Below, piece after piece: positions 2,898-64,000 of a DNA stretch of 64,000 bases. Source of the DNA: Chrysaora quinquecirrha. Taxonomy: Eukaryota; Cnidaria; Scyphozoa; Semaeostomeae; Pelagiidae. The stretch is taken from assembly GCA_014526335.1 (NCBI GenBank), contig JACTAT010000218.1:186001-250000 (forward strand), given 5' to 3'. The notes below the pieces were generated by a model. The model worked only from the letters and a program-made list of their open reading frames with translations, made no database searches and had not been told where the DNA came from. The stretch's first letter is position 1. Every line of letters begins with the position of its first letter. The position numbers and the translations under genes are program-made.

Positions 2898-3893
2898 ATG
2901 GCTGGCTTCAGACAATTTGTGAACAAATACTGCTTGAAAATGAAGAGTCTGCTTCACAGAATACAGAATACTATGAAGATTCGCAGGATCTTCATTTGCT
3001 TGAGTCAGAATCATGGTAGAACAAGCACTCCATTACCAAATATTTATGCACCTCCACCACCTCGTTTTCCTGCAACACATGTCTTTCAAACCTCTTTTAT
3101 CAGGACAATCACGAGACCAACACCAACACAGAGAGAAAATTCTTTTCAGCTGTCGTTTCTTGAGCGCCAATACACTGCTGGCCAGATTATTCAACCTCAG
3201 TTACAAGAAAACCGGTTCCAGGCAGCAGCTGTGACAAAAAACTCACAAAAAGGGAGGAATACATGGAGTAAGGAGCAGACAGACGCACTTGTTAATGCAT
3301 GGAAGGAGGCATTTGTGGAACTTGAAAGTCACAAGAATCCAACTGCGTGGAAAAGAATTCTGCAAAGGGTAAACTCAAAAGTGATGGAAAAACACTTGAA
3401 CAGATAAAGATAAAGCTGAGTAATCTAAAAGATAGGTACAAAGAGGCGAAGGAGAAAAATAAGAGAAGCGGAGAAGCAAGAAACACTTCAAAATATTACG
3501 AACATTTTGACGAAGTTCTGGGAACAAGAAGTTTAGTCGAGCTTGGGGAAGTGCAGGAGACAATACCGACTTTAGAGGGAAAAGAAGGAGAACATGGGGG
3601 TGATAGTGTTGGACCGGCTGAAGAAACAAGAAACAACAAAGAAGAGCTTGCCCAGCCAAGAAGAACAAAGAAAAGAAAACCTTCAAAGGCTACTGCAGAA
3701 AATCAGCTTGTAGACTGCTTAACAAAGATGCAACAACAACAGCAAAAACAATGAATAAATTTTGGAAGGAATGAAGGAGATAGAGGAAAGCAGCTGTAGA
3801 CACACCAGTGAAACACTTTTGAAAGTTGCTCAAATTTTGGGAAACAACAAAAGAAAGAGGGATGAGGAACTTGATGATGAAAGTGAAGAATGA
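2898..3893 (+). pseudogene. Myb/SANT-like DNA-binding protein of a PIF/Harbinger element
   Basis: A first block (2898-3407) ends with TWSKEQTDALVNAWKEAF, the start of a trihelix or Myb/SANT-like domain. A second block in another frame (from about 3360) continues it with KIKLSNLKDRYKEAKEKN and the SGEARNTSKYYEHFDEVLG segment typical of Harbinger accessory proteins. A third frame ends with an ETLLKVAQILGNNKRKR tail at 3893. The gene is therefore broken by at least two frameshifts. In PIF/Harbinger transposons this protein partners the transposase for nuclear import and terminal binding. Here it points toward the minus-strand transposase at 5218-6560, the usual convergent two-gene layout. Confidence 0.75.
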
Positions 3894-5217
3894 TAAATCT
3901 ATTAAAGTCTATGTTGCTTAGAAAACCATTATACCCGTTCTTGTTCTTGTTCGGTTGTCTCAGTCTTTGGTATATTTTTACTATTTGCAACAAAGGTTGT
4001 AGATTTAATTTTTTCATTGAAATGTTCATAATGAGTTGAGGATTATTATTTTTATTTCTACTATTAATATTGTAATATAACTATAATGTTCGTGATGATG
4101 TTGATGACGTTCATGATGACTATGATGATTATGATTTTTCATTCCCCCAACTAACAACAACTTCGAGATTTTCGCTAACCAACTGTATACCAGTTTTGTT
4201 AAATCAGCGTGGTGAGGGGCTGTTCACTCTAGGCGTATGAGTTTTCCAGTTTTTAACAGAAACAAAATTATTTCCAATAGATTTTAGTTAGAGCCATGGG
4301 TTTTAGAGCAAGGATGTACAAGATTTTAAAGGAGTGGATCGCCCTCAAATCAGCGCACCAACCGGCGCACCCAAAGTTGAAAAGCTCACATGACTTAAAC
4401 ACAAGGTTGCAAGTTCCTGTGAGACGAGCAATGCATGGCCATGGGACATCAGAATCTGACTGTTTCTTATCGTGTACTGTGTTCTCTCAGCTACCTACTT
4501 TTTTTAGGGATATTAGCCCTGCCACATGTTATCATTTTCCTTCCTTTAATCCACAAATGTTTCTTATTTTAGTTTTTTATTGTTAACAAATTTCCTTCAT
4601 ACAAAATTAGACCCTAGATGAGAACGAACGGTACAGGAAATAGAAAGACAAATAATGTAACAAAACAGCACAGCAAACTTATTATGGATACGCTAATTTC
4701 TTTAAACCAGTAGGGCGTTTTCACCGTACAATACCTTAACAATATAACAGAACATACTGTGTTCCTTTTCATAAAAATGTGGTCATGATCATAATCAACT
4801 TACAACAGCACAGCACAGTGATAGTAATAATGATCATATCAATGAATTCAATTACACTACACTCATTTTTTTGTAAAACACCTGTAATTAGAAACTATTT
4901 TCTACTTGAACAAAATTGTTCTTATGGATAACAACGGTATATATGGGTCAATATGGGTATATATTTGGGTATATAATAAAGGCTCTTTAACTTTAATTTA
5001 GAGACCTAAGTCTCCCACAAAAAGATGAGTGTGTTTGTGTAACATTACAAAGCGCGGTCAACAATAACAAAACTAATCTAGAGTAAAGAATAATGTTCTA
5101 AGGTGAAGTCTGGGCCAAGCTATAGTTGCTCTCTTCATTCTTTATATACCTAAGAAGAAGGTTCCTGATTTCTTCTCCCGATCCACATGTATTTCTGGTA
5201 CGATTTTCCACTGGATC
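3894..5217. other. Spacer between the two Harbinger genes
   Basis: No coding sequence recognised. It contains a short GATGATGTTGATGACG-like low-complexity run near 4090-4135 and an ATATGGGTATATATTTGGGT repeat near 4940-4980. A 96-codon open frame at 4296-4586 shows no motif and is probably chance. Confidence 0.45.
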
Positions 5218-18441: not shown

Positions 18442-19489
18442 TATCATTCAACTACAAACAGAACTTCAAAACTACCCAGATCAGAAATTTGCTAATCAAT
18501 GAATTCAATACTTTAAAACGGGTTTTGATATTGGCTATTCAGGTCCCGAATTTGCAAACAACTCAAACAATTTAAAGTCTGCTGATCTTTATTCTAAGCA
18601 AATATCTGATAATATTATCTCTGAATTGAAAGATAAACGTATAGCTGGCCCCTTTCGCACTTCTCCTTTACCAAACTTTAGAATCTCACCCATTGGCGCC
18701 ATAAAAAAGAAAAACTCGACAAAATTTAGGACAATTATGGACCTCTCATCTCCTAATGGTTTCTCAATTAATGATTTTATCGGTGACGAAGAATCTTCAG
18801 TCAATCTCAATAACTTTGATCAAGCAGTAAATATCATATTCAAATTCGGAAAAGGTGCTCTTATGGCAAAACTAGACATTAAGGCCGCCTTTCGTATTTG
18901 CCCAGTTAAGCCGTCTAATTGGCATTACCTTGGTTTTCAATTTCTTAATATGTTCTTTGTTGACTTATGCCTTCCTTTTGGCCTCCGGTCGTCTGTAAAT
19001 AGATTTACCCAGCTATCAAACACTCTATTGTGAATTATGAAAAACAATTACTTGATTCAATTCAGTACCCATTACTTGGATGATTTTTTCATAGCTGGTC
19101 GCCCTAATTCTGACGCATGCTACTCGGATCTTCAACAGACAGTCGCTCTGTTGAAAAAGCTTGGAGTCCCCTTAGTTCTTGACAAAACAGAAAGACCAAC
19201 AACGTGCATCACCTACTTAGGTATTTTGATTGATTCCTCACTAATGCAGCTGCGCCTGCCCCAAGACAAATTCGATTCCCTACTTGCGCTCTTAAAAGAA
19301 TGGGTTAATAAGAAAAAGTGCACAAAACGCGATTTACTCTCTTTAATTTTGTAAACTGGCTTTTGCCTCAAAAGTAATCCCCTCAGGTCGCATGTTCCTC
19401 CGCAAACTGATTGAGTTATCAACTTCCGTTAGCAAACTTAATCATCATATTTCTGGCATACCGGAAAAGTGGGACCCGGGACGCATAGG

Positions 19490-19805
19490 TGGGACCCGGG
19501 ACCCGGGACCCTAAGGTGGGACCTTAAGGTGGGACCCTAAGGTGGGACCTTAAGGTGGGACCATAAGGTGGGACCCTAAGGTGGGACCCTAAGGTGGGAC
19601 CCTAAGGTGGGACCCTAAGGTGGGACCCTAAGGTGGGACCCTAAGGTGGGACCTTAAGGTGGGACCCTAAGGTGGGACCCAAAGGTGGGACCCTAAGGTG
19701 GGACCTTAAGGTGGGACCTTAAGGTGGGACCCTAAGGTGGGACCTTAAGGTGGGACCCTAAGGTGGGACCTTAAGGTGGGACCCTAAGGTGGGACCCTAA
19801 GGTGA
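19490..19805. repeat. 13-bp minisatellite, left TIR arm
   Basis: Over twenty near-identical units of AAGGTGGGACCCT or AAGGTGGGACCTT. They form the left-hand half of a large inverted repeat with the array at 23700-24005. Confidence 0.97.
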
Positions 19806-20622
19806 GTTGGGTTAGCTAAGGGACTGGGTCCGAGTTTGAAGGTGCGTTTTTCAAGGTTTCGGGTTACGGCAGGGGGGGGGGGTTTCGCTAGTATCGCTAG
19901 TATCGCTAGTATCCCTGCACGCAACGGGAAATTTTTTTAAAGTTCCCAAAGATACAAAATGCTGGCAAATAATATGGGAGAAAGAATATGTGATACAAGA
20001 AAGAAGATATGGATGTTGAAGTAAGTGGACAATTTACTTATATGTTAAAAGATGTATTATAATATTTATGTTTGCCTGTTTTATAAAAGCTATCTTCCGA
20101 AAATATAACTTTAACTTGCCATAAAGAAGCTTTTGTTGGAGATTGGGATAGGCCATTTTGGGCCTAACTTTATGAAAACGTCACTTTTGACGCTTGTTTA
20201 TCTTAAAAGTTTAATATGTAGTTGGGATTTTAACTTGCATCTAATAGTTGGAGACCTGAAGTACCTTACTTTGTCAAAAAGTCCTATAGGTCACGACTTT
20301 AAGAGGTTGTATTTTCCAGTTAGCTGTGACATCCAGTGTGGAATGGATGTGTATCCACTCTGACTTGTCACCCTGTCATAATCTTCTTTTTAGAAGGTTG
20401 ACAGTATCCGGTGGATGTAGATGTAGATGCAGTTTCATTCTGTGCATTCTTCGTGATTGATTTGGTTTGTAAACTGGGTGAAGTTTTGGCTCAGCTTAGT
20501 GCTAAGTATGGCAAATTAGACCAAGGTCTCAAACTGTATGTAGCGAAGCACTATGATCCTCACTTCATATGCAGATAGAATGTACATATTTAAGTGCATC
20601 TAAAAATATTATCTTTCAACAG

Positions 20623-23097
20623 ACTCATGAATCACCAAAATCAAGACAAATCAAGAAAAGAACTAATATTGAGAGTCCCGTAGCAAGCCACAGAAGGGGA
20701 TTTACACAAAGTCCATCTCAAAAGGTATGCATATAATTAATTGCATATCTCCGTTTTAAAGTTAGTGTGAATTCGTATTAAGCATCTCATTCTTTAACTA
20801 TTTACAGTAGTTATTTGAAGAACATCAAAATTCAAAGGTGAAAAACCATTACTTATTTTTCATAGAAATATATTTCATAGTTCTATTGATATATTTGAAA
20901 CCGCGAGTCCAGTAAGTTTTAAAGTTAAACATTTTTGTTTCAGGTTGCAAGTTCCTGAGTTTTAATATCAAGAAGAACACTGTATGGGTCACCAGTTCAA
21001 TTGAGTCCAAAAAAGTGACCAGTCATTAGAAAATGGCACAAAAAATGAGAATAAAGCCTTGGTGGAATTCATAGAGCTTCACAGTGATTTCAACCCAAGT
21101 GCAACAAAGCATGGCTCATGGCCTAGTACACACCGAGTGTATTATTGGAAACAGGCTGCAGCATACATATCTGATAAAAATGCAGACTATAATTTAAGAG
21201 TGTGTATGTATTGGTTATCTTTTTTTAAGCCAACAATGTTTTAATTGATATTCTGATGTTGCTTTGTTTTAACATTATGATTTTTAATGTAATGAACCTT
21301 TTCTCTCATAGGGAGTGGAGTTCGCCAAAGGAGTATCAACAGTTTGAAACAGAGATTCAGTGATGTAGAGAAAGCAGAAAAACATTTCCATCTGAACTTG
21401 AAAGCTCAACATCTGTGGCAACAGAGGCTAAGTCAAGTTGTGAAGTTGATTTTCTTGATGGGCTTAATCATGAACAGTTGAAAGCCGTTGCTAATCGTTC
21501 ATTTGCCAAATTAAATGCTCAAGAGAGAAGAAAAATAGCTTTTGAAAGTCTTCACCTTGAAATACCTGGCAGTGAAGTCACAGAATTTATAGTTGATCTA
21601 TTTGAAAACGTTCTTCCAAAGACAGATCAGTTTAAACTTTTGGAAGAACTGGTAAATGTTGCAAAGAAGTCATTCAAAATTAAGGGGAATATTTGTGGAT
21701 TTGCAGAGCTGTCAATGCAAGCAATGGAAAGGCTAAACAGTGAGAACAAACCAAACTTGGTTTGCCTATGGAGTCAGATCTTGACAAAAAAGACACAGAT
21801 TCCTGGAAAAGAATATATAATCTCATGTGATAGAATGCCCTTTGGACTTTTGCAGTTTGTCATTGAATTCTATACATGCAGCAACATCATGCAGGTGAGT
21901 ATTATTTTCATTGTTTTCTGTATACAAAATAATGACTGCTCGCAGTTTGAGCACTGTGGTGACTCCACAATGCAATCCAAAAATGTGTAACTGTACATCC
22001 TGTTCCTCAGTTCAGGAGTTGCAGTGAAGCCATTGCGGTGATAACCGGGAGGGCACATTGTATTTCATATACATATAGAATGTAATATAATAACACTTAA
22101 TTCAATTAAGCACTGAGGGAGGGATCATCAAAAATTTGACTTCAAGGGGTGGGATTATTCAAGAGTTGGGCTTGATAAAAATTGAGCCCTCCAGAGAGGA
22201 GAGTGGTTTTTTTGAGAGGGGTTAATCAAGTTATTCAATACTTGCATTTTGTGAACATTTCTACTTATTTGTCAAGACTAATCACTGCTTTGTTGAAAAA
22301 AAACAGGTTGAGTGACTGCAAAATTTGTGGGGACTGAATGCCCTCGCAATCATAAGCTGAGTGAATTATACTGCAGTGAGATCCTCACACTTTATGCTTG
22401 CGAGTTTGAATATAGTAATGTAATTGATTTAGACTTGTCCAATCTCACCATTTTAGACAAGAGAGTCACCTGATAGTGATTATAGCCAGTGGTTGGATAC
22501 AATGGAAGCTGAACTTGGTGGGAGGTTTTTCAAGTTGTTTCGAGGACCCATGTGGAGCGGACCTGCTCTGGAAAACCACAAAAATCCAAAATGGGTAAGT
22601 GAACAGTTTGATTTTGGAATACTTAAATTGTTGCATCTTTATATGATAAAGATGTATACAAGAAATCCAGGGGGCCTGTTGGCACCTTGACATACAGGGA
22701 GGTAGGGCCGATATTTTTGGGTCAACCATTTGCCCAAAGTGATATTTTTGGTACACACATTTCCCAATATGATCAACCAAATATACCTACATGAAACTAT
22801 TTTATCATCTTTTTCTAGGCTAGAACAAATGTACCTTGCTCTGGTATCCATACTCATCTCAAAAAGACAGCCACACCTTAATTCAAAGCAGAAACCGGCA
22901 TGCAGAATGCAGCTTTGGATACTTTAAAACAAGCAGACCCAAACGGGCGATTTTGGCTGAAACTGGATGCTTGTGATCTTAATGATGGTTTATTTGAGGC
23001 AGTTAGCACGGAATGGAATGGTGATTGCGACTTAGGGGATGGTGCTCTGCAAAAGCTGCGTGCTGTAATCTACCACAAGAGGCTCCTAACACAATAA
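20623..23097 (+). pseudogene. Multi-exon gene of unknown family inside the 9-bp-TSD element
   Basis: Segments with splice-like edges: 20623-20724 (after TTTCAACAG, before GTATGC), about 21010-21199 (ALVEFIELHSDF, WPSTHRVYYWKQAAAYI), 21312-21893 (before GTGAGT), about 22456-22593 (EAELGGRFFKLFRGPMW, before GTAAGTG) and about 22819-23097 (FWLKLDACDLNDGLFEAV, WNGDCDLGDGALQKLR). The second exon resembles a Myb-like DNA-binding module. The last matches a WNGDVDLGDG-type block that I have seen in uncharacterised cnidarian proteins. A frameshift near 21370 in exon 3 and a stop in the last exon suggest decay. It is either captured host sequence or an element gene of unknown role. Confidence 0.5.
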
Positions 23098-23699
23098 TGA
23101 AGATTAAAAAAGAAGTTTCGTTAGTTGACTTTAAAAGCTGTCTGAAGAATGTAATTGATGTTTTGCAAAATCAGGACAAAGATTTCTCGTCTTCTCCTTC
23201 TGTGTTTGCTGAACAATATCTTCTGCGTTCGTTGCCATTTTTCCTCGGTTTGTTTCCTTGCCTCGTGTAGGCCTAAGGTGTCTCGCCACAAATATCCAAA
23301 AATACAGGCCTAGGTACTAAGTAAAATGGTTTAGTACACTCCCTCTGTGATCTTAAGGGTCGCCAGGAATTCACAAGCAAATCCCATTTAATAGATATAA
23401 CTGGAATTGCTTTTCCAAAATCCTAAATTCTCCGTCCTTTTCCAGAATTCTGACTCTCACGATCCTCTCCCAAGGCTGCATTCCATGTACTTAGGCCCGA
23501 AGATCTTCAACGAGAGAGGATTTTTTTCTGCGTATCGGCATGACAATTGTAAAATAACAATAGAAACCTTGAGAGTGTCCAAAAATAACAATTGCTATTG
23601 TTCTCTGACTGAAATTTCCAGAATGTTGGCGTAACCCTTAACCACTTAACCTTGAAAAACGCACCTCCAAACTCGGACCCAGTCCCTTAACTAACCCAA

Positions 23700-24005
23700 C
23701 TCACCTGAGGATCCCAGCTTAAGGTCCCACCTTAAGTCCCACCTTAGGGTCCCACCTTAAGGTCCCACCTTAGGGTCCCACCTTTGGGTCCCACCTAAAG
23801 GTCCCACCTTAGGGTCCCACCTTAGGGTCCCACCTTAAGGTCCCACCTTAGGGTCCCACCTTAGGGTCCCACCTTAAGGTCCCACCTTAGGGTCCCACCT
23901 TAGGGTCCCACCTTAGGGTCCCACCTCATGGTCCCACCTTAAGGTCCCACCTTAGGGTCCCACCTTAAGGTCCCACCTTAGGGTCCCAGGTCCCACCTAT
24001 GCGTC
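23700..24005. repeat. 13-bp minisatellite, right TIR arm
   Basis: The complement of the left array: over twenty units of AGGGTCCCACCTT with variants, ending in the same GGGTCCCACTTTTCC tip. Confidence 0.97.
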
Positions 24006-24274
24006 CCGGGTCCCACTTTTCCGGTATGCCCATATTTCTTTAAATACCAAGGCCAGGAAAGATATCAAATCGTGGCTTGAATTCCTCCCACAATGGAATG
24101 GCAAACATCAAATTTTAAATTCGCATCTGCCTGAATGCACGAGAAAGGCAATGTGAGATTAAGATATAACTTTTTTGTTTGCATATAGAAATGATGAAAA
24201 TTCTATTGTTGGAGTCTTAAATTATTAGAGCATTTGTTTGCTGTGATGACATACCTACAGTACGTTCCTGGAAA

Positions 24275-39079: not shown

Positions 39080-40402
39080 CAAAACACACGCATGTCATTG
39101 TAGAAGCATTGTGGCGAAGCAATGACCACAGGAGGGTACTGTTTTTTGGCTGTGGATGTCGAACTGATATTTGAACATGAAAATACGTCAACGAACACTC
39201 ATCATTTCTGTTTCACGCTCGTAGATCATGGAACTTCTAACATATGAGATTAGAGCTTTTCCTGTGGCAAATACTGGTGTGTCTTTGCTGAATTGAATGT
39301 CTTGGCTGTATGTTGTTGTTGGTGCAGCGAAGTGGACAACATGGCCTTGTAACAGCAGGAGCATATCACTCCATGGCAAAATGACTGGAGACCATCTAAA
39401 GTCATTCAGAAAAATGACTTCCTTATCTTCTGCACCTAGCCAGGCGTACAAACAAGTTGCTGGAGACAAAAACGTATTGTAAACAACCCTTAGAGGGTCA
39501 GGAATGAACGTTTTTCCACAGTTCGCAGGACCAGTAATATATATATTACGGCCCTTGCCGCGACCCATGACAAGCAACTTTATTATGGCATCAGCAAAGA
39601 CTGCCTTATCGATGGAATTGTTGTCTAAGATGTCTAAGGCACATGCCAGCCATTCACCCTTGCAGATACATGGATTGCTTATTTGCTGTTGCAGTATTTC
39701 AAGCCTTGACATGTTAGACCGCTGGATTTTTTCACTGGCTGTCTCGACTTCCCATACTGTGTCCAAGAACTCCTTCACTTTCTTTTCGCTCCTGTTCAAG
39801 ACACACTCATACAGACCATGATCACCACTCTTTAATGTTGACTTAGCTAGAGCAAGAAGACCAACGCGTGCATGAATTTTCTTGGAGACGATAATACTCG
39901 CAACTTCGGTGTTTGACAGACGTTTCAACTTCTTCAACTTTTTGGTGCCCTTTTTGGCCCTACCTCTTGCAGCGTTAACTCTTGTGGCATTGGCAGCTCT
40001 TGGCTCTCTTACTACCTCAGGATGGTTGGGACTTTTGAGAACTTGGTCGCCTTCCTTCATGACGTAATTGTACGCAGAGAAATAACCAGCATGATCGGAA
40101 AAGTGGACAACGATATTATAATTCTCTGTTATATGATCGTTCACTTTAGCCCAACGCTTTGCCTTGTCCAGAAGAATGGCGATGTGGAAACGATAACTGC
40201 CGTTCTTATGCTGCTCCTTACAACATGCCGATTGAATAACTGTTGACTTTGTAGCAGACTGGAATGATTATGCAATAGCGGATGCAAACGTTTCTTTATC
40301 AAACAACTCTTAATCGGCATGACTGTATGTTATCAAATAGGCTTGTTTAACACTATTACTTGCTAAGCTTACTAAATCTTTGTTTTCATCGCAACTGGCC
40401 AT
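39080..40402 (-). pseudogene. Rep-like replication initiator with SF3 helicase, endogenised
   Basis: From ATG at 40402 one frame runs to 39188 with two stops near its start. Then comes a shifted tail containing KQYPPVVIASPQCFYND. The N-terminal domain holds a YRFHIAILLDKAKRW segment at the position of a HUH motif, with the first His replaced by Arg, and a SDHAGYFSAYNYVMKE block. The helicase has Walker A GPANCGKT (about residue 290 of the frame), Walker B EVIFLNDFRW and a PVFATGKA sensor block, as in SF3 helicases of parvovirus-like or CRESS-like Rep proteins. It belongs to a Rep-like family repeated in cnidarian genomes (from memory). Stops and the altered HUH site argue it is inactive. Confidence 0.7.
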
Positions 40403-42130: not shown

Positions 42131-42283
42131 GTCAGTGGTGAATCTTGAAGGAAGCAACAAATTAAATAGAAGGAGGACTGGTTAGGAATCCTATTGTTCT
42201 CCATTAAGAATGTTATTGTTAGGGAAATTTATTGTCACGTGACATTGAACCTGCATCAATCATCAGGCCTAAGTACAGTTTCA

Positions 42284-42715
42284 TATGGCGCGCCAAAGCG
42301 GCCAAAAATATAAAATTTTGTGATGCCAACTTTCATATTTTTGTCGATCGATCTATCATTTTTGTCGATCGATCTTTCATTTTTGTCAATCGATCTTTCA
42401 TTTTTGTCGATCGATCTTTCGTTTTTGTCGACATCAATCACAAATTTGTGTAACACAAAAAAATCAATAACAAACTTATGTGACACAACAAGTTCAATCA
42501 TAAATGTTTTTGACACAAAATTCTATCAAAAATTTGTGTGACACAAAAAATTCAATCGGAAGTTTGTGTGACACAAAAAATTCAATCGAAAGTTTGTGTG
42601 ACACAAAAAAATCAATCAAATTCGTGTGACACAAAAATCATATCGCAAGTAAAGAGCTGTCATGGCAACTGCGTCACGGGGGCTGGTCACGTAAACGGAA
42701 GCTGCGGGAATGACC
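42284..42715 (+). repeat. Left TIR with two minisatellites
   Basis: About 42334-42430 has four to five 21-bp units of ATTTTTGTCGATCGATCTTTC, each with the palindrome TCGATCGA. About 42440-42640 has about seven 30-bp units with TTTGTGTGACACAAAAAATT, each itself a small palindrome. The arm ends at GCTGCGGGAATGACC. Confidence 0.95.
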
Positions 42716-43211
42716 CTAAAATGGCGCGCCAAACAGGCAAATTGACATTGCGGCCTAAATTTTGCTGTATTTTCTTTTGTCATGGAGGACGGTTCCGACA
42801 ATGTTGCTACGCTATTTAGTGTATACACTTCCGAACAGCAATAGATTAAAATATGTCATAACCTAAACGTTACAAAACAAACAAATAATTTTTCTTGCCT
42901 GCTGCCACGATCACACAACAGTGACGCCAAGTAGCAAGTACTAACAACGCATGGGGGCAAAAATAGTCTCAAAATTGCAGTAACAAAGCAATTGCAAAAA
43001 TTGACAGCTAGTTTGTGATCTTGTTTAGAAAATAAGAATACCACCAGAAATTTTCCTTCAATTTGATACTTGTAAGTCCCTTTTGCCTTGGTGAAAGTTT
43101 AAAAGAACATAGCTTTCATTTTTCATTTCATGGGCAGCTAGCTTGGCGAAACTGTAATACACGTGGAGTAATCTTCAACTTCATGTTCGGACATGACATA
43201 ACCAATTAAGC

Positions 43212-43387
43212 TCGTAAAATTCGTAAATTATTTTCAAATCTTTGTTTTAAAATGCATGGAACATAACAAAAACCCCAAACGGAGAGAACAAAACAATGTC
43301 GTAAAATTCGTAAATTATTGTCAGATCTTTGTTTTGAAATGCATGAAACATAACAAAAACCCGAAACGGAGAGAACAAAACAATGTA
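43212..43387 (+). repeat. 88-bp direct duplication near HECT 3' end
   Basis: CGTAAAATTCGTAAATTATT begins at 43212 and again at 43300. The two 88-bp units differ at only a few bases. They lie just downstream of the HECT stop codon, in the possible 3' untranslated region. Confidence 0.95.
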
Positions 43388-43415
43388 TCATAAGCTGCTG
43401 CGTTATTAGACTTGG

Positions 43416-46400
43416 TTAGACTTGGCCAAAACCTGGTGACTCAACTATGTCTTCTATAATGTTGTTGCTGAAACTGTCACTTGTATACCTGTTAGTGACG
43501 GGGAAGGTAAGTCTCAATGAACATGTACTCACTTGTACACGACGACCAAATGAATCACAGTCATGCATAAAATCAATTGTTCCCCTGCCCATGCTAAGAG
43601 GTGGAATAAATCTTGAACCGGTGGCAAAGAATAGAACATCTTCCAGTTGAATAAGTAATCTTTTGTTGCTCTGAGATTCATCAACTCTGAAATCTAGTTT
43701 ATTTATTTCTGTCACTAGCCCCCTTTCTGCTTCATCCAAGAAGTTGCACCAATTAAAAATTATATCGGATTCTTTGCTCCTTTTTGCACTGCCTTCTTCG
43801 GAAAATTTACTCTGAAATAAATTCCTCAGCATGCTTGCTGTCAAATGGCCAGCTTTATAAACAAACTCTGATTCAGCATCATCTTTGTAGCGCTTCAGCA
43901 TGTCTAGCACACCATTTGAGGCTAGACCATCTTCAAAAGATTGCTGCTCGCGTAGTTGGCGGACTACTGTCCAATGCCAACTTACTTTCTCAATGAAAAC
44001 TTCTCTGTCTTGCAGAAGAATTTTCACCTTGTTGTAGCCGGCTTCAAATCGTTCTTCGATACCTTCTACTAACGTATCCAATTGATCTTGTGTTTCACAA
44101 GCTGCTACCTGCTCCAATTTCACCTTCAACTCGTAGTCTGGAACATATTCAGAACCACTGATCTTCTCTCTTGAAAGCAAATGCCGTATGAGTGGCAAAC
44201 AGAAACAGTGGGGTCCAGACAAACCATGCAACAGTGCTAAAGCTGTGACTTTTCCGAATATTTCAAAAAAGCCGGAATCCATCTTATGCACATCATGGAG
44301 AAAGGCATAATTTTTCTCCTGCCCACACATAAGCTTTTGAGCTGCACTTTCAAAGAACAATGTAAACATCTCTCTGAGTGGACCACCAATGTCAGAAGCC
44401 GGCTCTCCCACGAATTCTACTGTAATTGGTTTCAGATCACCATCCTTGAAGAATATCATCATTTTTTTCACCACATCCGAAAAGAGATTCGCCCTGCGCA
44501 CCAAGAATTTGATCGGCTGTAGAGACTCCACAAACTTCTTTGACTTTGAACTGATTTCATCAGAGAGAGAGTCGAAATTCTGCTTCGTTATCAATGGCAA
44601 GGATGCTGAACGATCAGCTACATCTTTACCAGAGCAATTACTTGCATGAACTTCTATCATATCTAGAGCAAACTCTTCTGAGCAAATTGGGCAGGATCTT
44701 TTCTGTGGCGAAGATGTGGACTCTCTTCCTGTATTTTCAGCTGCAGTTGAGTATTGCAGCACGGATTCGATCAATTCACTATCGGAAATGTCGTCTAGAA
44801 TATCCACTGGAGAGTCAGCAGCTGAATTTGACTCATCTTTTGTTATGAAGTCGTTATCAAATGCTTTTGGGTTTGATAACAGGCCCAACATCTCTTCTGT
44901 GGCTCGGATGAATAAAGGTTTGTCTCTGAGGCCACAAATATGCTTGATTACTTCTCCGCTGATTTCCCCATTATTCACAACTCTTACTATTTTCTTCTCG
45001 ACTGCTCGTACGAAATGAAACTTTACTAGCCTTGTGCAATGGGAAAATTTTTCAGAAAGTTCCTTTTCTATACCCATAATGATTTCGCTTTCGGTTGCTG
45101 TGCTTCTTAATCTGAAGCCTGAAATTACGAACCCTTCCTCATACAAAATTTCCCTGCACAGACCTTCAGGTACATAACCGATTCGAGGTGATGGTAGCAA
45201 AACAGCATCCTTGATCCATGTTTTTGCTGCAGCTTTTTTGCTTGCAGTGGATGGCAGTTTTGAAGCAGAAGATTGTGGTCTTTTTCGGTTGACTCCAGGT
45301 CGTTTTCTTGTAAGGGAGTTCTGTGGTGGTACACTGTATGAGTGTCTATTTGTCGCTGCTCCTATAATAAAAATATTGACAAAAATGAAAATTTCGATCC
45401 ACGGTTTTAAAACGTTGAATTCAACGAAAATCCAAATACTGATGAAATTCTCCCGTTATAGAAAATCAAGGGCCTTACACAAAGAAGAAATGAAATAAAA
45501 TAAGAGACATTTCCTGGGATGCTTGGTAAGGATGGTTTCGGTAACAAAAGTTTTTTAACAGTGCAGCGAACAAAGGTAAACAGGAAAATTATCACGTGAA
45601 ATTAAAAGCTGTTATGCATCAACTGCGAGTCTAAGTTTCTTATAATACAGAACGACCTCAACCCAAACCAACTAAAAGCATGGGCTTTAGGAAACTGGAA
45701 CTCGGAATAAGAAGTCGCTTCTCTTTTAATTTTCTTTATTTTATTTATATGTCTCATTATTCTGCTGCGAAGGCGCCATTGTAATCTGGCATGTGGCTGA
45801 TTGACATGAGATTAAGCCATTATATCACTCAAACAGTAAACTGAAACCTCTTCAGTGCATAAATATTATAAACAAAACCACAGACCTAATGTTTTTATTT
45901 CTGTCCTTGTAATACGAACCCCAGTATGTCTGGAGAATTTACCCTAGGATTGCCTGGGGATTTCTCCAGCACGAGAAGAAAACGCGACGCTGGAAAAACA
46001 ATAGAATCTATTGTTCGCAGCTCTCTTGTGCCTAACCCATCTAGAACTGAAGGAGTTTCAACTTATAATTTGAGTGACATAATGGCTCGATCTAGTGTCA
46101 ATCAGCCACAGGTTGGACTAAAATCGCGCCTTCGTAGCAGAATAGGGATTAAAAAGGAATTAAAAGGGAAACAACTAGTTATTCGGAGCTCGACGTTTCC
46201 TACAGCCCATGCTTAAAGGCATGAAAAACTTTTGCACTCCATACCCCCCATGAGTTTCGCCTTAATTTGATGGTGGAGTCTAAACAACATTGAATTGTTA
46301 GTCCCCCCGGGGCACCTGTTAGTTTTCTTAAAATTGTGGTCTTGTAATAAATAAATAGATAAATCAATAGGCACTGATTTTTTTAGGCGCCCTGAAGTAC

Positions 46401-46703
46401 AGTACAAGGCTTCTTATAAACCAACGGTTTCTTATAAAAAAAACGTGTAATAGATAAGCACTTACCAGGAGAGAAAGATTGCCTTTCTTGTGTGCCGCCA
46501 CCACGTGGATGACCTCCAACACCAACAGTAGGGAACGAGTGAGCAATGTACTCGGGGATGGTTGTCTGCTGCTGCTGTATTTGGCCTGTTGTGGATCGCC
46601 TCGCGTTGAGCGAACTCAGACGACCGGTTGTTTCAATGAGCTGCCTAACCACCTCGTCTTCTTCTTGTGTCTCGAGTGCCTGACTATATCTTTGTGCTGC
46701 CAT
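43416..46703 (-). CDS. HECT-domain E3 ubiquitin ligase (G2E3-like), transposon cargo
   Basis: Exon 1 46703-46466 (ATG, MAAQRYSQALETQEEDEVVR), GTAAGT donor; an ATTATAG acceptor starts exon 2 at 45361, running to the stop at 43416. The join is in frame, giving 727 aa. The N-terminus is Ser/Lys/Arg-rich. A zinc-binding CPICSEEFALDMIEVHASNC (C2HC, UBZ-like) lies near residue 300. The HECT domain starts near 385 with VEFVGEPASDIGGPLREMF. The C-lobe contains LFFATGSRFIPP and the catalytic-Cys motif VSTCSLRLTFP near 690, then the ESPGFG end. All expected HECT landmarks are present, so it may be catalytically competent: it would take ubiquitin from an E2 onto Cys and pass it to substrates. Substrate unknown. 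The 1.1-kb intron carries an opposite-strand ORF. The start lies 90 bp inside the right TIR's inner edge, so the TIR may supply the promoter. Confidence 0.88.
45926..46216 (+). CDS. 96-aa basic ORF in the HECT intron, unknown
   Basis: It opens with ATG, MSGEFTLGLPGDFSSTRRKR, and contains KSRLRSRIGIKKELKGK, giving a basic, probably disordered protein. It lies on the strand opposite to the HECT gene within its only intron. No family recognised; it could be a remnant of another element gene or chance. Confidence 0.3.
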   Translation: MSGEFTLGLPGDFSSTRRKRDAGKTIESIVRSSLVPNPSRTEGVSTYNLSDIMARSSVNQPQVGLKSRLRSRIGIKKELKGKQLVIRSSTFPTAHA

Positions 46704-46793
46704 GATGTTCAATGATCACCGAGATGGCGATATTCAAGATTTGCCCAAAAGGTCTGTTGACTGCTGTGCTGAGCATTGAGCAGATTGATTACT

Positions 46794-47225
46794 GGTCATT
46801 CCCGCAGCTTCCGTTTACGTGACCAGCCCCAGTGACGCAGTTGCCATGACAGCTCTTTACTTGCGATATGATTTTTGTGTCACACGAATTTGATTGATTT
46901 TTTTGTGTCACACAAACTTTCGATTGAATTTTTTGTGTCACACAAACTTCCGATTGAATTTTTTGTGTCACACAAATTTTTGATAGATTTTTGTGTCAAA
47001 CACATTTATGATTGAACTTGTTGTGTCACATAAGTTTGTTATTGATTTTTTTGTGTTACACAAATTTGTGATTGATGTCGACAAAAACGAAAGATCGATC
47101 AACAAAAATGAAAGATCAATTGACAAAAATGAAAGATCGATCGACAAAAATGAAAGATCGATCGACAAAAATATGAAAGTTGGCATCACAAAATTTTATA
47201 TTTTTGGCCGCTTTGGCGCACCATA
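46794..47225 (-). repeat. Right TIR with two minisatellites
   Basis: Inverted copy of 42284-42715: GGTCATTCCCGCAGC tip at the inner edge, then the 30-bp units, then the 21-bp TCGATCGA units, then TTTGGCGCACCATA at the outer edge. Confidence 0.95.
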
Positions 47226-47237
47226 GTTTCACGTCTA

Positions 47238-49800
47238 ATGGCAGCACTAATGGAAGCATTATGCCAGGATAGAATTGCAGATTCCTCGGATGCCTTAATA
47301 ACCGTTGTTCACGAGATAGCAAATTATCGTTTTTTTAAAAGACCAAACTCTAGGAGCAGTGATGGAGAGGAAATAAGAAAGAACAAGGAAGCTGCGAGAG
47401 CGAAGTGGATAAAAATTGTGTGCAGGACAAGAGTAAAAGATGTAGATCTGGATCGTCAGTTTTGTCCAAATTCTTTCACTTACGTGAAATTCATTTTGAT
47501 CCAGACGATGTTGATGTCTTCCCAACACGGAAGGTCTTTCAAACTGGAAGCATCCCAAGGAAAAATCTGCCAAAGAAGTCACTTGAGATGGAGGGTGTAC
47601 AAGAGAGGGGAATTGTGGAACGAATACAGTTTGAATCTACTACTACTCAGTCGAAGACAGTTTATGAGTCCTTACAAGCAGTGAAAAAGAGCCTAGGGAG
47701 AATGAAGCTACAGCCATGGCGTGCAGAGACAAATGAAGATTTTATAAACTTGATTCTTGATGACACAGAGCTATCTTTACCAAACTTCTTGATCACAATC
47801 CGCAATGAAAATCAGCTGAGTGCAGCATGTTTTTATTTTGGCTGGAGGATACTACCAGTTGATAACTTAGATTTACAGAATAACTCCTTAAGACAAATTT
47901 TCTAATTTTTGTCACAGTGTGATATTTGTTGCGGCTTAGGTAGTTATATTTCTACTTCATTCAAGGAACAATTTTGCATGCTGTTCCAAAAAAGCCAATC
48001 ATAAATACTTGCTGTGACCCATTTTCAGTGTCTAGATTATTGAGAAGTAAAGGTTGCTCAACAATTTTGTTCCCAAATGTTGTGGATAGCAGCAGTTGTA
48101 ATAATAAACAAACATCACAAATGCAAAAGTTGTAATAATAACAGCATAATAATAGCAGCAGTTGTAATAATAAACAAACATCACAAATGCAAAAGCAGTC
48201 GGTCTCAAAAGTGGTTCCTGCAAAGGACAAAGCCCCATTATCTGCATGTAGCCAACAGAAACTTATTGTTACTGTCAAGGCAAGTAGACTGAAATGTAGA
48301 GAAGTGGAGAATGAGCTGTTTAAGATCAAACGGGAAATAAAATGTCATGGAATAGAAGATGATAATGACCTTCATGGAGATTTAAGATCAATTGTGGGGA
48401 ATTCAGATTTAAATACCAGCCCTCTGATGAAGTTGGTCTGGGAGGAGCAACAAAAGCTCAGTTCAATATCTCCAAAGGGGGACGCTATCATCCCCAGTTC
48501 ATTGGATTCTGTCTATCATTGCAAGCCGAGAGGTCTAGTGCATACGATGAAGTATCTGAAGTCCTTATTTTGCCAAGTCAGAGATGCCTACGAAACTATA
48601 AGCATACTTTCAAAGCTAGACCTGGTATAGTAAAGGAAAATATCAGAAAGCTTGCTTCCCTCACCAATAATTACCAACAAGGCCAACAATATGTTGGTAT
48701 TTTATTTGTGGAGATGAAAATTCACAGCAATCTAGTTTTGGATAAAGTATCTGGGCAGCTTATCGAATTTGTTGACCTGGGAGATCCAGTAATTGACTAT
48801 GTCTCATTTGATGGTGAAAATGAGATTGCACAATATGCTCTGGTTTTTATGTTAAGAGTTTTATGCACAAATTTAAGGCTGTTTTCAGCTACCATTTAAC
48901 AGATTCTGCTTGTTCAACTGTTTTCCAATTGTGGCCATTATTCTGGCAAGCTGTCTTTTGCCTTAAACATGTACTTAATTTAAAAGTTCTTTTTGTAGTC
49001 TGTGAGGGAGCATCACAAAACCGAAAATTTTTGAAACTCTATAAAAATCTTCAAGGAACCAGCAGTAGTGAAGAAAAAGTGAATTTTGTTATTTCACTGT
49101 CAATCTAGCTGCTACAAATCACGAAACATTTTTTTGGTCTGATATTCCACATCTCATGAAAACTACAAGGAATTTTCTAAAAAGTGCACAAGACTTATGT
49201 GGAATGAAGGAGAATTCATCATTTGGAGCCATATTGCAAAAGCTATATCCTGTGATCAACAAAATCAGCTTCATCATCTTCACAAAGTAGGCCCCGATCA
49301 TATACGTGTCACGCCATATGGAAAGATGAGAGTTTCTTTTGCTATTCAAGTGTGAAGTAAGAGTATGTCATTGGTATTGAGGCATTATTTCCAAGACAAC
49401 GAGGGAGAAGAAACTGCCAAGCTGTATTTATTAGTAAATGATCTATTGGACATGTGCATTGTTCAACACTAACAGCACATATACATGAGAGAAATGAAAA
49501 CATAAAGCCCTACACCTCTGTTGATGACAAAAGATTAATGTGGATGAAAGATGTATTTCTTGCTTACTTGAAAAAATGGAAAGATCATGTGGAGAGTCGA
49601 TTTGGAAACTATTCTAAGGAATAAAGATAAAAAATGTTTATGTCTCAGCAGACTTATGAGGGCTACAACATCACCATCAATTTAACAATGGATATTATAA
49701 AATATATCCTAGAGAATGGATTAAAGCTTTTAAGGCTTTTAATCTTGTCCAACTAACGCCTATTTCGCTTCTGCAATGTGTTAATGGTGCACGTTTTATG
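47238..49800 (+). pseudogene. P-element/THAP9-like transposase remnant
   Basis: Plus-strand segments in shifting frames follow P-element transposase order. Near 47400-47560 there is a degraded FFHLREIHFDPDDVDVFP region (probable THAP end), then NFLITIRNENQLSAACFYFG. 48420-48900 has SPLMKLVWEEQQKLSSISPK, AYDEVSEVLILPSQRCLR, VGILFVEMKIHSNLVLDKVS and LIEFVDLGDP. Next are EGASQNRKFLKLYKNL (about 49010), SDIPHLMKTTRN (about 49140) and KPYTSVDDKRLMWMKD (about 49510). The diagnostic SQQTYEGYNITINLTMD (about 49645) closes it. The many frame changes and stops show it is dead. The HECT element inserted only 7 bp upstream of its first ATG. Confidence 0.85.
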
Positions 49801-54665: not shown

Positions 54666-56157
54666 TAATGGGACCATTTAGGCCCTAGCCTAAATGTACG
54701 CTAACGCCCAGGTCTAGTTTCCAGTCTTCTTGAGTAAAGGGCTGAAAGTCTTCCTCTTTCTCGGCAAGGAACTGCCACTTGGTCAAGCTTTCCAGATCAA
54801 TAGAAGATTCGTAATTTATAAACAGTGAGACGACCTGAATCGACCTGAAACAAGCTGAAACCATCGGAAACGACCTGAAACCACCTGAAACGAGCCGTCA
54901 AATTTACAATCGAGGCTGAAACGACCTGAGAGGACCTGCTATCTTAGCAAGAAAGTGTTAAGGTCAAGGGATTTGTATTGTTCTTTACGCATTGTCGCAT
55001 TCTTTTCTTATCACAATAGGAACACGTGTCAGTATCAAAGCGGCCATCCTTTCATCAGACACCTAATTTTCTGTGAAAGACAGTCTATCGAATCCATAAG
55101 GGGTCATTGGACATGAGGGGTTATGATGATGGGCGGTTTTCCGGGTTTTTTCGACACTTCGAGAGCGATTTTACCAAGGGGCAATTCACTCCTCAGAAAG
55201 GTGTGTGAAATTTTTATGAAAACAAAAGGATCTCCAAGAGATTTTTGTGAAAACAAAAGGTTTTCTAGCAAAGGTGTACGAAGTTTTCGAAGAATGAATC
55301 ACCCCTCGGGTTTAACAGTTATACCTTCAAAAAGTGCAGTTTTTCAATTTGTGATTTTGGTGTGGTTTTAAAGAGTTTTAACATGTAGGTCTAGGCTTCA
55401 ACTATTTTGGGTAAAAAATTGTTTTTGCGGTTTTCAAACCTCTCCCCCCCCCCTATGGCTCCATAATGGAGTTTCGGAACCAACATGTTGATCTAAAGAA
55501 CTTGGGTTAAACACAAAATGCCAAATAAAAACAAAAAGAAAAGGCAAAAAAATTCAGAACCCTGGCAAAAAAAAGGTACGCTTATACCGAGGGGCAATTA
55601 TTCACTCCTTGAAAATCTCGTACACCTTTACTGGAAGTCCTATTGCTTTCTTGGAATTCCCTGGAAATTCCTTTTGTTTTAATGAAAATCTCGTACGCCT
55701 TTTTGCAGAGTGAAATGCCCCTCGGCTTATACAGTAAATGGGAATTTGTGGGAGAACGGCAACAACAAAATATCTTTATTGAAAATAGACTCCTCCTTTT
55801 GATCAGGAAATCATATCAAGTCAATCAATCAATTTTCAACAGATTAAGAACAATACCTTCCCAGAGGGATGGCCGCTTTGTTACTGACACATGTTTCTAT
55901 TGTGATAAGAAAAGAATGTGACAATGCGTAAAGAACAATACAAATCGCTTCGCCTTAACACTTTGTTGCTAAGATAGCAGGTCGTCGCAGGTCGTTTCAG
56001 CCTCGATTCCAAATTTGACGGCTCGTTTCAGGTCGTTTCAGGTCGTTTCAGATGGTTTCAGCTCGTTTCAGGTCGTTTCAGTTCGTCTCACTGTTTATAT
56101 AAATTACGTAGAAGATTTGGTATTAATGTGCCATGTTGGCTTAATATTCAAAATTTG
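54666..56157 (+). repeat. Dispersed repeat, copy 1, split by an insertion
   Basis: Left part 54666-54809 starts TAATGGGACCATTTAGGCCC; right part 56118-56157 continues GGTATTAATGTGCCATG. Together they align with 58671-58855. The 1.3-kb transposon at 54810-56108 separates the halves. Confidence 0.85.
54810..56108. mobile_element. 1.3-kb transposon with minisatellite TIRs and 9-bp TSD
   Basis: The ends CGTAATTTATA...AACAGTGAGACGA are inverted on both sides, and TAGAAGATT flanks both (54801-54809, 56109-56117). The TIRs are about 240 bp and contain tandem 10-bp units of CCTGAAACGA. An unoccupied copy of the target at 58671-58855 carries the 9-mer once. The interior lacks coding capacity and contains a second inverted repeat (about 55165-55740, tips near CCGAGGGGCAATT). 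A 9-bp duplication suggests a Mutator-like class, like the larger element at 19455-24030, but the sequences are different. Confidence 0.92.
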
Positions 56158-60186: not shown

Positions 60187-60214
60187 TACGGTGGCCCACA
60201 AGTGCCACGGCAGT

Positions 60215-60440
60215 AAAAAAAGACTCACCGCATTAACAAAAGAGTCACAGCGTTAACAAAAGACTCACAGCGTTAGCAAAACACTCACGACATCAACAAA
60301 AGACTCATGGCGTTAACAAAAGACTCACAGTGTTAGCAAAACACTCACGGCATTAACAAAAGACTCACGGCATTAGCAAAAGACTCACAGCAAAGCAAAA
60401 CACTCAAGGCTTTAACAAGACTCACGGTAATAACAAAAGC
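60215..60440. repeat. Left TIR minisatellite
   Basis: About eleven units of AACAAAAGACTCACGGCGTT with variants (GCATTAGCAAAACACTCAC). Confidence 0.95.
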
Positions 60441-60449
60441 CAACTTGGC

Positions 60450-61189
60450 CACAACAAATTGAAGCCATGGGGCTTCCCTATTCACGGAGGAATTGATGGA
60501 TTTAGCAGAAGGATGCTTTGGTTAAACATCACCCATTCGAATAATTCTCCTGATAACATTGCCTCTATGTACTTAACAGCCGTCAAAGAAATGGGAGGCT
60601 GCCCTGTAGAAATGATAACCGACCTGGGTACTGAAAATGGCATTGCAGCGGCAAGTAAATGCTTTTTCCGTGCGAATAACGATGCCCATCGATATGTTCC
60701 ATCCCCCGAAACAAAAGGATAGAGGGATGGTGGTCATACTTCTCTAATAAACTATACAATTTGGTGAAAAAATTTTTCTCGGATTTGGAACATAGAAAGG
60801 TAATTGACGTATCATTGGAACTGCACAAAGAGTGTTTGTGGTACTGCTTCCATTCAGTAATCCAGTTTGACTTAGATAAGTTTAAAGAACACTGGAACAC
60901 GCAAACAATACGGAAATCATGGTACAGTAATGTTGCTGGTAAGCCGGACTCACTATATTTTCTTCCAGAACGCTATAGAGGCGAAGAAAATCTACTGCAT
61001 GATGTCCCAGGAAGGAAACAAAATTACATAGCCGAAAATATAGTTGTGGAGCAGAAATTGAATGAATATCAAGAATACTTTGAATACATATCAATTCAAC
61101 AAAATTTTGCAAGCACTTGGCAAGAAGCACTCTCCCTTTACAGTGTAATAATAAAAGTTGCAGATTTAGGTTTCAATCCATATAATTAA
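60450..61189 (+). pseudogene. DDE integrase-type transposase, decayed
   Basis: The reading starts without ATG directly after the minisatellite, so the N-terminal HTH region is missing. Catalytic blocks: KPWGFPIHGGIDGFSRRMLW (first Asp), MITDLGTENG (second Asp) and, after a one-base frameshift near 60713, RIEGWWSYFS with the catalytic Glu. Then ELHKECLWYCFHSVIQFDLD, WNTQTIRKSWYSNVAGKPDS and LYFLPERYRG follow, ending at 61189. This rve-like family is known from many animal repeats and I associate it with IS3EU-like DNA transposons (from memory, uncertain). It is the only transposase candidate in the HECT-carrying elements. Confidence 0.8.
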
Positions 61190-61323
61190 GGAATGGCATA
61201 ACAAAACAGTAACAAAACAAACTTGTCAATTTATTGATTAAAAGTATCTCAATTTAACTGAAGACGGTAAAAGAAAATTTGCAATAATATCTCTACTTTC
61301 TTGACAAAAATGAATGTAGGAGA

Positions 61324-63636
61324 TCAAATAATCCTGAAACCTTGTTCGCTTGTCATGTCTTCCGTAAAGCTTGTAATAAAGTGTTCTGGTGATTCGCTAT
61401 ATCGGAAAGAAGCTGGAATGGTTATCTCAAAACTGCAAGTATGAACAACTACCGATCTATATTTTCCATCGTGATCAAATTAAGTACGTCCTTGATTTCT
61501 CATCCCTGCTGTGATGAATTTGGAACCAGTCTAAAATCTTGATACCTCTTCAACTATGATTTGAGCAATGACTTCATTTTCTTTGCCATCTTCATCCAGA
61601 ACTATTCTTGGCATTGACATAGCTCCATCTATTTCCAGTTGTAAATGACGTCTTCCTCTATGTCGTGTCTTTCTTTTGAAACATGATCTTCATCAGAAAC
61701 TGTTGTGTATTTTATTTCCCTGAACAAGGACATTATATCACTGGCTTTTTGAGACTTTGGTAACAAGAATTCTTCTTTACACTCTCCATAATGGTTTTCT
61801 AGTATTTGACAAAGTCCCAGTATTCCAAGGCCCTTCCGTACCTCTGCAATTTCCTCATAGCAGACTGAAACACAGAGGTGCTGAGCAATATCACGTACAA
61901 AGTCAGCTCTCTCTTCAAACTTAACTTTCATGCGGGTAACACCAAAGTTGAATCTGTTAGGAAATAATTCCATATTCCTCTGAAAATCTTCTTCGCTCTT
62001 ACTTTCCATAATACTTTTCAGTTTTTCCTGGACATCATTGTCAGGAATTTCATCTAAAGAAGCAGGTACTACAGTGCTGTTCAAAAGATTTGCCAATAAA
62101 CAAGGCATGAAATATCTGGGGCCAGAACAGCTTTGCAGCAGTGCAGCAGCTATCAATTGTCCAAACAAATGATATTCCCCTCTTCTCACCTTTTCAATGT
62201 CATGTAGCAAAGTAAAGGTTGTCCCATTTCCTGTGCACATGACACATTTTTTGGCCTCATCAAATATTACAGAGAAAAACTCTCTCAGGGGATCTCCACC
62301 ATCTGCAGCTTCTTCCCTAATAAAGCTCACAACAATACGTTTCACACAATTTCCAAAAAGACGTCCCAATTTTTGACAAGTATCTTGCCAAATTTTTCTC
62401 CTCCTCACAGATAATAATACAAAATCTTCTTCATTATCCTCCAAAGCAGCCCTGAGTGTAGCTAACTTGCTCTTGTATGACATTTCACTTGTATGAGTTA
62501 CTTGTGGCACTTGCTTTTTTGAAACCGTTAGTGCACATGTATCTTCAATGCCACTTCCAGAATTAACTACATGTTGAATGGTTGATGTATTTGGCAATTC
62601 CGTCTCTGTTGCAATTCCATAATATATGTCAGAGTTAAAGAATGAATCTATATCCAAAGATTCTTTATCTGCATCACATGGCAAAGTAGGTGTTTCATCC
62701 AATTTCACAGATTTACTCACTGGCTCACAGTATTCTTCACCTGTGTATTGTGATGCAATGTGGTCATCTAGGGTACATAGGTAAAATGTGATTCTTTTGA
62801 AATCAGTTCCAATATCTTCACGATATTTAGATAGGTTAAAAAACTCTGCAGTCCCTGGCATAAACTGAGCAGATTTCCCATCTGCATATGTAAGGACATA
62901 TTCCTTATCATCATAATAACAATCACTGTGGTAGTTTTTCCACTTTGCTTCTGCTTGTTGCTTTATGACCATATATGTATCATCTGTTTTCACTCGCAGT
63001 GCCAAACGCTTTCCTCGCCTGGATTTACATTTTTCATCCTTTGCAGACCATTCAATCAAACCAATATTGATAACAACTGCAGATGGTTCTGACTTTTTCT
63101 TGTCATTTGACTTTGTTACACGTTTCCTCCACTCTGTGCCCTTGTTTGCTCTGTAAGTTTCAAATGAGCATACCGGTGTTGATAGCTTGAATGGGTTTGC
63201 TGTTGCTGCAGCACTTGATTGAGGTGTTGATATTAAAGGTCCTCCAATTCCTGCACAGGATGTTGATGGGGAAGTTCCAGTTGATGAGGAATTTCCAACT
63301 ATCACTAAAATAAAAAATGGAAAAATTTGCAAACAAAAAAATAATATCTTCTCCACCCAGTAATCATTCAGTACCAAGTACCAGTCACAGTTTGCACAGA
63401 ATAGAAATTAATATTTTTGTGAAGTTTTTTGTCACAGGAACACATGTTCACTTTCAAAAATTTTAACACTAGCACCAGTTTCGATTCCATTCCATACTAT
63501 TTCACATTATTTCATACTTTTTTGACTTTCAAAATTTATTTCTTAAACAGTAAAACTAAAAATACTTACCCTTTCCGCATTTGCTGCAAAATTTGCTTTC
63601 TTCAGTGCAAATTGCACCGCAATGGCTGCAGAACAT
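61324..63636 (-). pseudogene. HECT-domain E3 ligase with N-terminal zinc ribbon, decayed C-lobe
   Basis: Exon 1 63636-63570 encodes MFCSHCGAICTEESKFCSKC (two CxxC pairs, zinc ribbon). A GTAAGT donor and TTTTATTTTAG acceptor join it in phase to exon 2 from 63304. The long open part to 61629 contains TEWRKRVTKSNDKKK, a KWKNYHSDCYYDDKEYVLTY block and the HECT N-lobe (AADGGDPLREFFSVIFDEA, FTLLHDIEKVRRGEYHLFGQ, SCSGPRYFMPC). After the stop the C-lobe is still recognisable in another frame with two stops: FTAG-like TGSKFITAGMRNQG and the catalytic VVHTCSFEITIP, ending near 61324. One frameshift and two stops make it inactive. Domain content differs from the 42-47 kb ligase, so it is a distinct lineage, not a copy. 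Confidence 0.85.
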
Positions 63637-63714
63637 CTTGTGAAGAAAAATGGTTGAGAATAGGTAGGCCTGCCAGACCAGGACCACGGAGCACGAGACT
63701 ATTTATGTTCTAAT

Positions 63715-63945
63715 GTTGTTGCAGTTGTTTTTGCTTTCGCCGGAAGTCTTTTGTTAATGCCGTGAGTGTTTTGTTGATGCCGTGAGTCTTTTGCTAATGC
63801 TGCAAGTCTTTTGTTAATGTTGTGAGTCTTTTGCTTTTGCCGTGAGTGTTTTGCTTTTGCCGTGAGTGTTTTGTTAACGCCGTGAGTCTTTTGTTAATGT
63901 CGTGAGTCTTTTCTTAACTCAGTGAGTCTTTTGTTAATCCCGTGG
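63715..63945. repeat. Right TIR minisatellite
   Basis: About eleven units of TGCCGTGAGTCTTTTGTTAA, the complement of the left array. The HECT exon 1 start (63636) lies 80 bp inside it. Confidence 0.95.
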
Positions 63946-64000
63946 CACCTGTGGGCCACCGTACGAAAGTTGAGAATGATTGAAAGTGAAGAATGCTGCA

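Follow-up and report, generated by a model that had tools for sequence, protein, structure and literature searches.

The window analysed here is the whole 64,000-nucleotide stretch of Chrysaora quinquecirrha DNA at positions 186001-250000 of contig C211 in the 328-Mb host assembly. It holds, at 42284-47225, a DNA transposon of 4,942 bp that encloses a gene for a HECT-type ubiquitin ligase between the ends TATGG..CCATA. The terminal inverted repeats (TIRs) of this element are 432 bp each and show 7 mismatches between the arms (98% identity). Re-analysis confirmed the anatomy first noted in the sequence-only reading, namely the TIRs, the GTTTCA target-site duplication (TSD), and the open two-exon HECT frame, the parts of which are listed in Table 1. 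Given the TIR identity and the perfect TSD, the copy is probably young.

The HECT proteins of the window

By its catalytic cysteine and its bilobal fold, the protein of the element is a predicted E3 ubiquitin ligase. Specifically, Cys693 aligns with the TC motif of E6AP, and a predicted structure of the HECT domain alone, which replaced a whole-protein model of pLDDT 42.9, recovered the bilobal HECT fold. The TC motif with its cysteine was kept in 23 of 23 distinct fetched loci at which the match reaches the C-terminus; from the 36 loci fetched (L018-L053), this count excludes 8 repeats of other places and 5 matches ending before the C-terminus (L026, L028, L031, L037, and L045), and it is biased toward conserved copies, as the loci were picked by similarity. 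Against a Pfam HECT gathering threshold of 23.9 bits, the window protein scored 18.2, P0004 18.5, and P0006 59.9. Its UBZ-like finger showed weak matches to those of RAD18, RAP80, and WRNIP1. Homologues that carry organism names come from corals (Dendronephthya, Paramuricea, and Oculina). Further, the HECT domain had 8 structural matches (E 4e-9 to 3e-4) to HECT ligases of giant viruses (Fadolivirus, Pithovirus, Hokovirus, and Tupanvirus), which likewise place a HECT fold within a parasitic genome; the likeness is one of structure, not of sequence, and scans of viral and prokaryotic contigs found no relatives.

The window also contains a second, older HECT element. Its frame at 61629-63407 encodes a HECT protein (27.2 bits) that shares 28% identity with the first across the domain, and the homologue P0128 has the same N-terminal start and matches Pfam Zn_Ribbon_1. 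On the opposite strand, tail-to-tail with HECT, lies a decayed integrase-core transposase, the first sign that a transposase belongs with HECT. The inverted repeats consist of 20-bp units. In EukProt, gene10306 (75% to the transposase of this second element) and gene10307 (82% to its HECT) carry consecutive numbers, and P0019 and P0133 each lie on contigs of 1,550,588 bp; from these labels, we infer that the members of each pair are neighbours.

Table 1. Positions of the parts of both HECT elements, counted from the first letter of the window.
Feature	Positions	Strand	Remarks
TSD GTTTCA, left copy	42278..42283	none	perfect 6/6 duplication
Left TIR	42284..42715	+	432 bp, begins TATGG; 21-bp and ~30-bp tandem units within
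Transposase gene remnant	42782..42821	+	start codon + first 13 codons, MEDGSDNVATLFS
Internal deletion junction	42822..42824	+	three filler bases
HECT exon 2 incl. stop codon	43416..45361	-	
HECT domain, residues 340-727	43419..44582	-	model pLDDT 87.4
Catalytic cysteine codon, Cys693 in VSTCSLRLTFP	43521..43523	-	
C2HC/UBZ-like zinc finger, residues 303-322	44634..44693	-	weak match
HECT intron, GT..AG	45362..46465	-	
HECT exon 1, start codon at 46703	46466..46703	-	
Right TIR	46794..47225	-	terminates CCATA
TSD GTTTCA, right copy	47226..47231	none	
Second, older HECT element	60187..63963	none	3,777 bp, TACGG..CCGTA, TIRs ~82% alike over 207 nt
Decayed rva_4 (PF24764) transposase, second element	60447..61186	+	two frames, 5' part missing
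HECT gene body, second element	61327..63302	-	frame open at 61629-63302; P0130 places a C-lobe piece at 61327-61638, in a different frame
Probable exon 1, second element	63570..63636	-	zinc-ribbon motif MFCSHCG..FCSKCG

Sister copies and the lost transposase

A search of the genome with the 432-bp TIR, which the sequence-only reading had proposed, located the complete pair at two places, in the window and at C246:4546139-4554047 (L009), along with a single TIR on contig C386 (88% alike) and four further partial, weaker matches (71-80%). What the copies enclose differs. L009 carries exon 1 of HECT along with transposase frames, both genes are represented in the C386 copy, and the stretches around the four weak matches showed no match to HECT or to transposase, including the C386-type transposase.

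L009 spans 7,909 bp within its own perfect TSD, GAATAG. Its transposase frames and HECT exon 1 lie tail-to-tail, and 3.9 kb of other sequence has replaced the second HECT exon together with the bulk of the intron; two frames in this replacement (L009:1807-5666) were compared with Pfam, one finding no match and the other a weak one below the cut-off. The transposase frame begins MEDGSDNVAMLFS, homologous to the 13-codon remnant in the window. Collinearity between the two copies ends at window position 42821, beyond which the window copy lacks 1,850 bp of L009 (8110-6261) that hold the remainder of the transposase gene. An internal deletion thus took the transposase from the window copy and left it HECT, while L009 is the opposite case, in which transposase frames were retained and HECT exon 2 was lost. 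The stub came to light only through this comparison: in 42716-43420 and the intron, a profile built from those transposases that reach 340 aa (94 of the 120 listed) had a top score of 0.2 bits, and a search of the window element with the C386-type transposase gave no match at E 0.01.

The C386 copy has an open 727-codon HECT frame at 98.7% nucleotide identity to that of the window element and an intron at 97.1%. It also retains a 320-aa frame corresponding to the catalytic half of an integrase-like DDE transposase, with the motifs CIDGFS, VRSDQG, and NQRIERLW (D, D, and E) and a Pfam rva_4 match of E 3.9e-71. A transposon whose gene complement is HECT alone is ruled out by the L009 transposase frames and by the genome-wide linkage described below. 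Hence, the earlier observation that the ligase is the only clear gene stands for the window copy and fails for the family, in which most relatives carry a transposase beside HECT.

Genome-wide pairing and placement of the elements

Two HECT queries gave 69 and 75 matches, merged into 74 loci, and two transposase queries gave 107 and 129, merged into 215; each search scored the best candidates only (61 of 207, 104 of 682, 125 of 531, and 65 of 297), so that these counts are lower bounds. A transposase lay within 6 kb at 52 of the 74 HECT loci (70%), and within 3 kb at 51, with a median gap of 651 bp. All 52 linked pairs were convergent, that is, tail-to-tail, with none divergent or co-directional. 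When the HECT positions were shifted by 15 and 30 kb, 12 and 13 of 148 were linked (8-9%), and shifts of 60-500 kb left 1 to 3 of 148 (0.7-2%). Viewed from the transposase, HECT was found at 53 of 215 loci. One locus tallied as unlinked, L028, yet has a transposase match in its flank. Six stretches around linked pairs were read. In two of them, the transposase and HECT lie together inside ends that match and are flanked by a perfect TSD, namely in L051 (C292; 6,260 bp, TIRs of 353 nt that are 100% alike, TSD CTATTT) and in L049 (C387; 4,900 bp, TSD ATTTCT). In L048, both frames are open and inverted repeats are present, and L053 also has inverted repeats. With these TIR-to-TIR two-gene elements and the linkage, the sequence-only reading proves right that a HECT ligase genuinely belongs to a transposon, which it may help.

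The two genes also appear to have travelled together. At 22 of 24 two-gene loci, matching lineages are paired (H1-type with T2-type at 16, P0130-type with P0010-type at 6; Fisher P 0.0002, related copies not being independent), and at the two exceptions, L044 and L049, the HECT scores of the queries are close. Pairwise HECT and transposase distances were correlated (Mantel r 0.84 for 268 usable pairs out of 276, from 24 loci) and remained so after collapse to 15 families (r 0.74), with 0 of 5000 permutations reaching either value. This lineage pairing, together with the correlated distances, indicates that the ligase has long been a companion of its transposase. Further, between lineages (56-64% amino-acid identity; 8 of 21 pairs), synonymous sites were saturated and nonsynonymous differences were limited to 19-29% of sites; the HECT protein has thus been under constraint.

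As to superfamily, Polinton/Maverick elements also make 6-bp TSDs and end in AG..CT; they were rejected on the ends of the window element, TATGG..CCATA. IS3EU elements usually have a 6-bp TSD, TA..TA ends, and an integrase-like DDE transposase (PMC10045372), all of which recur here, the transposase by its rva_4 match. Specifically, IS3EU-like ends occur in the window element, the second element, L009, L049, and L051, with one end altered in L048; a 6-of-6 TSD flanks the window element, L009, L049, and L051, and none was seen at L053 or, flush with the ends, at the second element (1 of 6). The elements thus appear to fit IS3EU by ends, TSD, and transposase type. They differ from the members described in PMC10045372, a paper whose main text does not contain the word HECT, in their long TIRs of short tandem units. 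Tandem units of ~20-30 bp occur in TIRs with either kind of end (TATGGCGCGCC or TACGGTGGCCC; window 42284-42715, 60187-60415, and 63735-63963; L048 and L053), and they may be repeated transposase-binding sites.

A close parallel is the TET-carrying IS3EU of fungi, described with TAYGG..CCRTA ends, a 6-bp TSD, and an alpha-kinase gene opposite in orientation to the transposase (PMC12730594). The likeness extends to a transposase opposed by a second enzyme gene; here, however, the second gene is HECT, no TET/JBP was seen, the host is an animal, and the main text of that report does not contain the word HECT. Two other systems are likened by enzyme chemistry. In the KIU/Ulp1 MULEs of plants, an enzyme domain of a ubiquitin-like pathway has been retained in a transposon lineage, although the domain is of the Ulp1 type and the elements are non-TIR MULEs (PMC13317346). 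In Helitrons, transposon-borne VTD (shown) and OTU (putative) domains act on ubiquitin, but by removing it, as part of the RepHel protein of a rolling-circle element (PMC9741609). No paper describing HECT in an IS3EU element turned up in our literature search, which did not extend to Repbase reports or to most of the subscription journals; a database entry may exist. What appears to be new is a known superfamily with a ligase as its resident second gene.

What the ligase may do for the element

The anatomy, linkage, deletion, retained cysteine, inter-lineage constraint, and co-divergence, all of them read from sequence, suggest that the window copy is non-autonomous and derives by internal deletion from an IS3EU-type DNA transposon of two genes, in which HECT is resident, a reading to which we give a probability of about 0.88. 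In its complete form, such an element would run from one TIR through an inward-facing transposase gene (rva_4, DDE) to a HECT gene reading inward from the other TIR, tail-to-tail with it, between copies of a 6-bp TSD. Having no transposase, the window copy can only move in trans, and one would have to be supplied to it.

Several observations weigh against this reading. No transposase was found within 6 kb at 22 of 74 HECT loci, so that an obligate partnership is not supported, and no HECT was found at 162 of 215 transposase loci, which may be relatives that lack it or loci at which the queries missed it. Two of the six linked stretches (L050 and L052) have no inverted repeat of at least 40 nt. 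None of the fetched copies could be shown to be whole in its two genes and its two ends: in L009, the transposase frames are broken, the third catalytic residue is K, and the second HECT exon is missing; the L049 transposase frame has one stop; the C386 copy lacks, in the stretch read, a whole left TIR and the N-terminal part of the transposase; L048, with both frames open, has its altered end; and in L051 both genes are in several pieces. Finally, the comparison of dN/dS among copies, proposed in the sequence-only reading, uncovered the constraint between lineages but not among recent copies, for which values were 0.13-1.23 in 12 close pairs with changes (one more pair is identical) and, for the window against C386, 0.59 over the whole frame, with just 28 changes, and 0.75 in exon 2. 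Recent copies thus look near neutral, as would be expected of drift after insertion, and alone they show no selection.

Most likely, HECT is an accessory gene that resides in the element and adds to its success, and we infer that the ligase is active and produced from the element. One way in which it might do so, which we hold tentatively and at well under even odds, is counter-defence: with help from its zinc finger or from further regions near the N-terminus, the ligase would ubiquitinate host silencing, chromatin, or DNA-repair and target-site factors, such that the element is tolerated. We slightly prefer host factors as targets because a role in silencing or in protein stability has been proposed for other enzymes that transposons keep, including TET/JBP, also in fungal IS3EU, which would undo silencing (PMC12730594), the VANC/KIU Ulp1 genes of plant MULEs (PMC13317346), and the active deubiquitinase domains of Helitrons (PMC9741609). 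The UBZ-like finger points the same way, but its match is weak, and a zinc ribbon takes its place in the second lineage. Alternatively, the ligase could ubiquitinate its own transposase or transpososome, setting turnover, disassembly, or copy number. We give this only slightly less weight than counter-defence; the tight pairing and co-divergence, with the same lineages at 22 of 24 loci, fit partners. The HECT frame of the window copy is open with no transposase beside it, a state that neither model predicts or excludes.

That HECT is instead a captured host gene, as the sequence-only reading had also allowed, taken up once or repeatedly and carried as passive Pack-type cargo with no benefit to the transposon, is improbable. 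Such cargo would suit the near-neutral recent copies, the retention of ends and TSD in L009 after HECT exon 2 was lost, and the many transposase loci at which no HECT was found. It is disfavoured by the inter-lineage constraint and by co-divergence with the transposase, as well as by the uniformly convergent orientation, the cysteine kept at 23 of 23 loci, and a full-length coding frame whose start, intron, and stop all lie between the TIRs. A chance neighbourhood of HECT genes and transposons piling up in repeat-rich regions can practically be dismissed, since the clustering that persists to some extent at shifts of 15 and 30 kb falls far short of 70% linkage in a single orientation, and elements with perfect TSDs enclose both genes.

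On the resident-gene reading, ubiquitin chemistry would be part of the life cycle of some animal transposons, which would add E3 ligation to the few host-facing enzymes kept by transposons (TET/JBP, SET, Ulp1, and deubiquitinases). A wider version, to which we give somewhat less than an even chance, is that HECT belonged from the start to the core genes of an IS3EU clade found across animals and has been passed on vertically within it. Such elements would be machines of two components that ubiquitinate host defence factors or the transpososome in the course of transposition, and many cnidarian HECT (G2E3-like) gene models would be transposon genes. With dozens of paired transposase and ligase genes in one genome, the role of ubiquitin chemistry is directly testable; a further lesson is that mobile copies inflate the number of HECT genes counted in genomes of this kind.

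Other repeats were noticed near these elements and elsewhere. The right flank of the window element (47363-48899) has P-element-like transposase remnants at 48369-48899 (TNP-like RNase H and Tnp_P_element in Pfam), which indicates that the HECT element inserted into or beside another transposon. Its HECT intron contains an inverted repeat (45758-45856/46046-46144; ~99 nt, 80% alike), possibly a small nested element. Two further elements, L011:1778-4880 and L014:3490-7692 (the latter also pairing as 3490-4842), have the ends TATGGCGCGCCAAACC and no matching TSD; the HECT and both transposase queries found nothing in them, and they are probably non-autonomous relatives of L051. A third long-TIR element in the window, at 19446-24039, has the ends GGCATACC..GGTATGCC and a perfect 9-bp duplication, CATATTTCT; its TIRs are built of 13-bp, GGGACCCTAAGGT-like repeats, and its 208-aa frame at 21364-21990 matched no Pfam family. 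An open frame of 359 aa at 39188-40267 has a P-loop-like stretch, recognized by eye, and a very weak Pfam match to parvovirus NS1 (E 0.12). Finally, an inverted repeat of 233 nt (93%) at 54817-56099, with arms 817 nt apart, is likely another small element.

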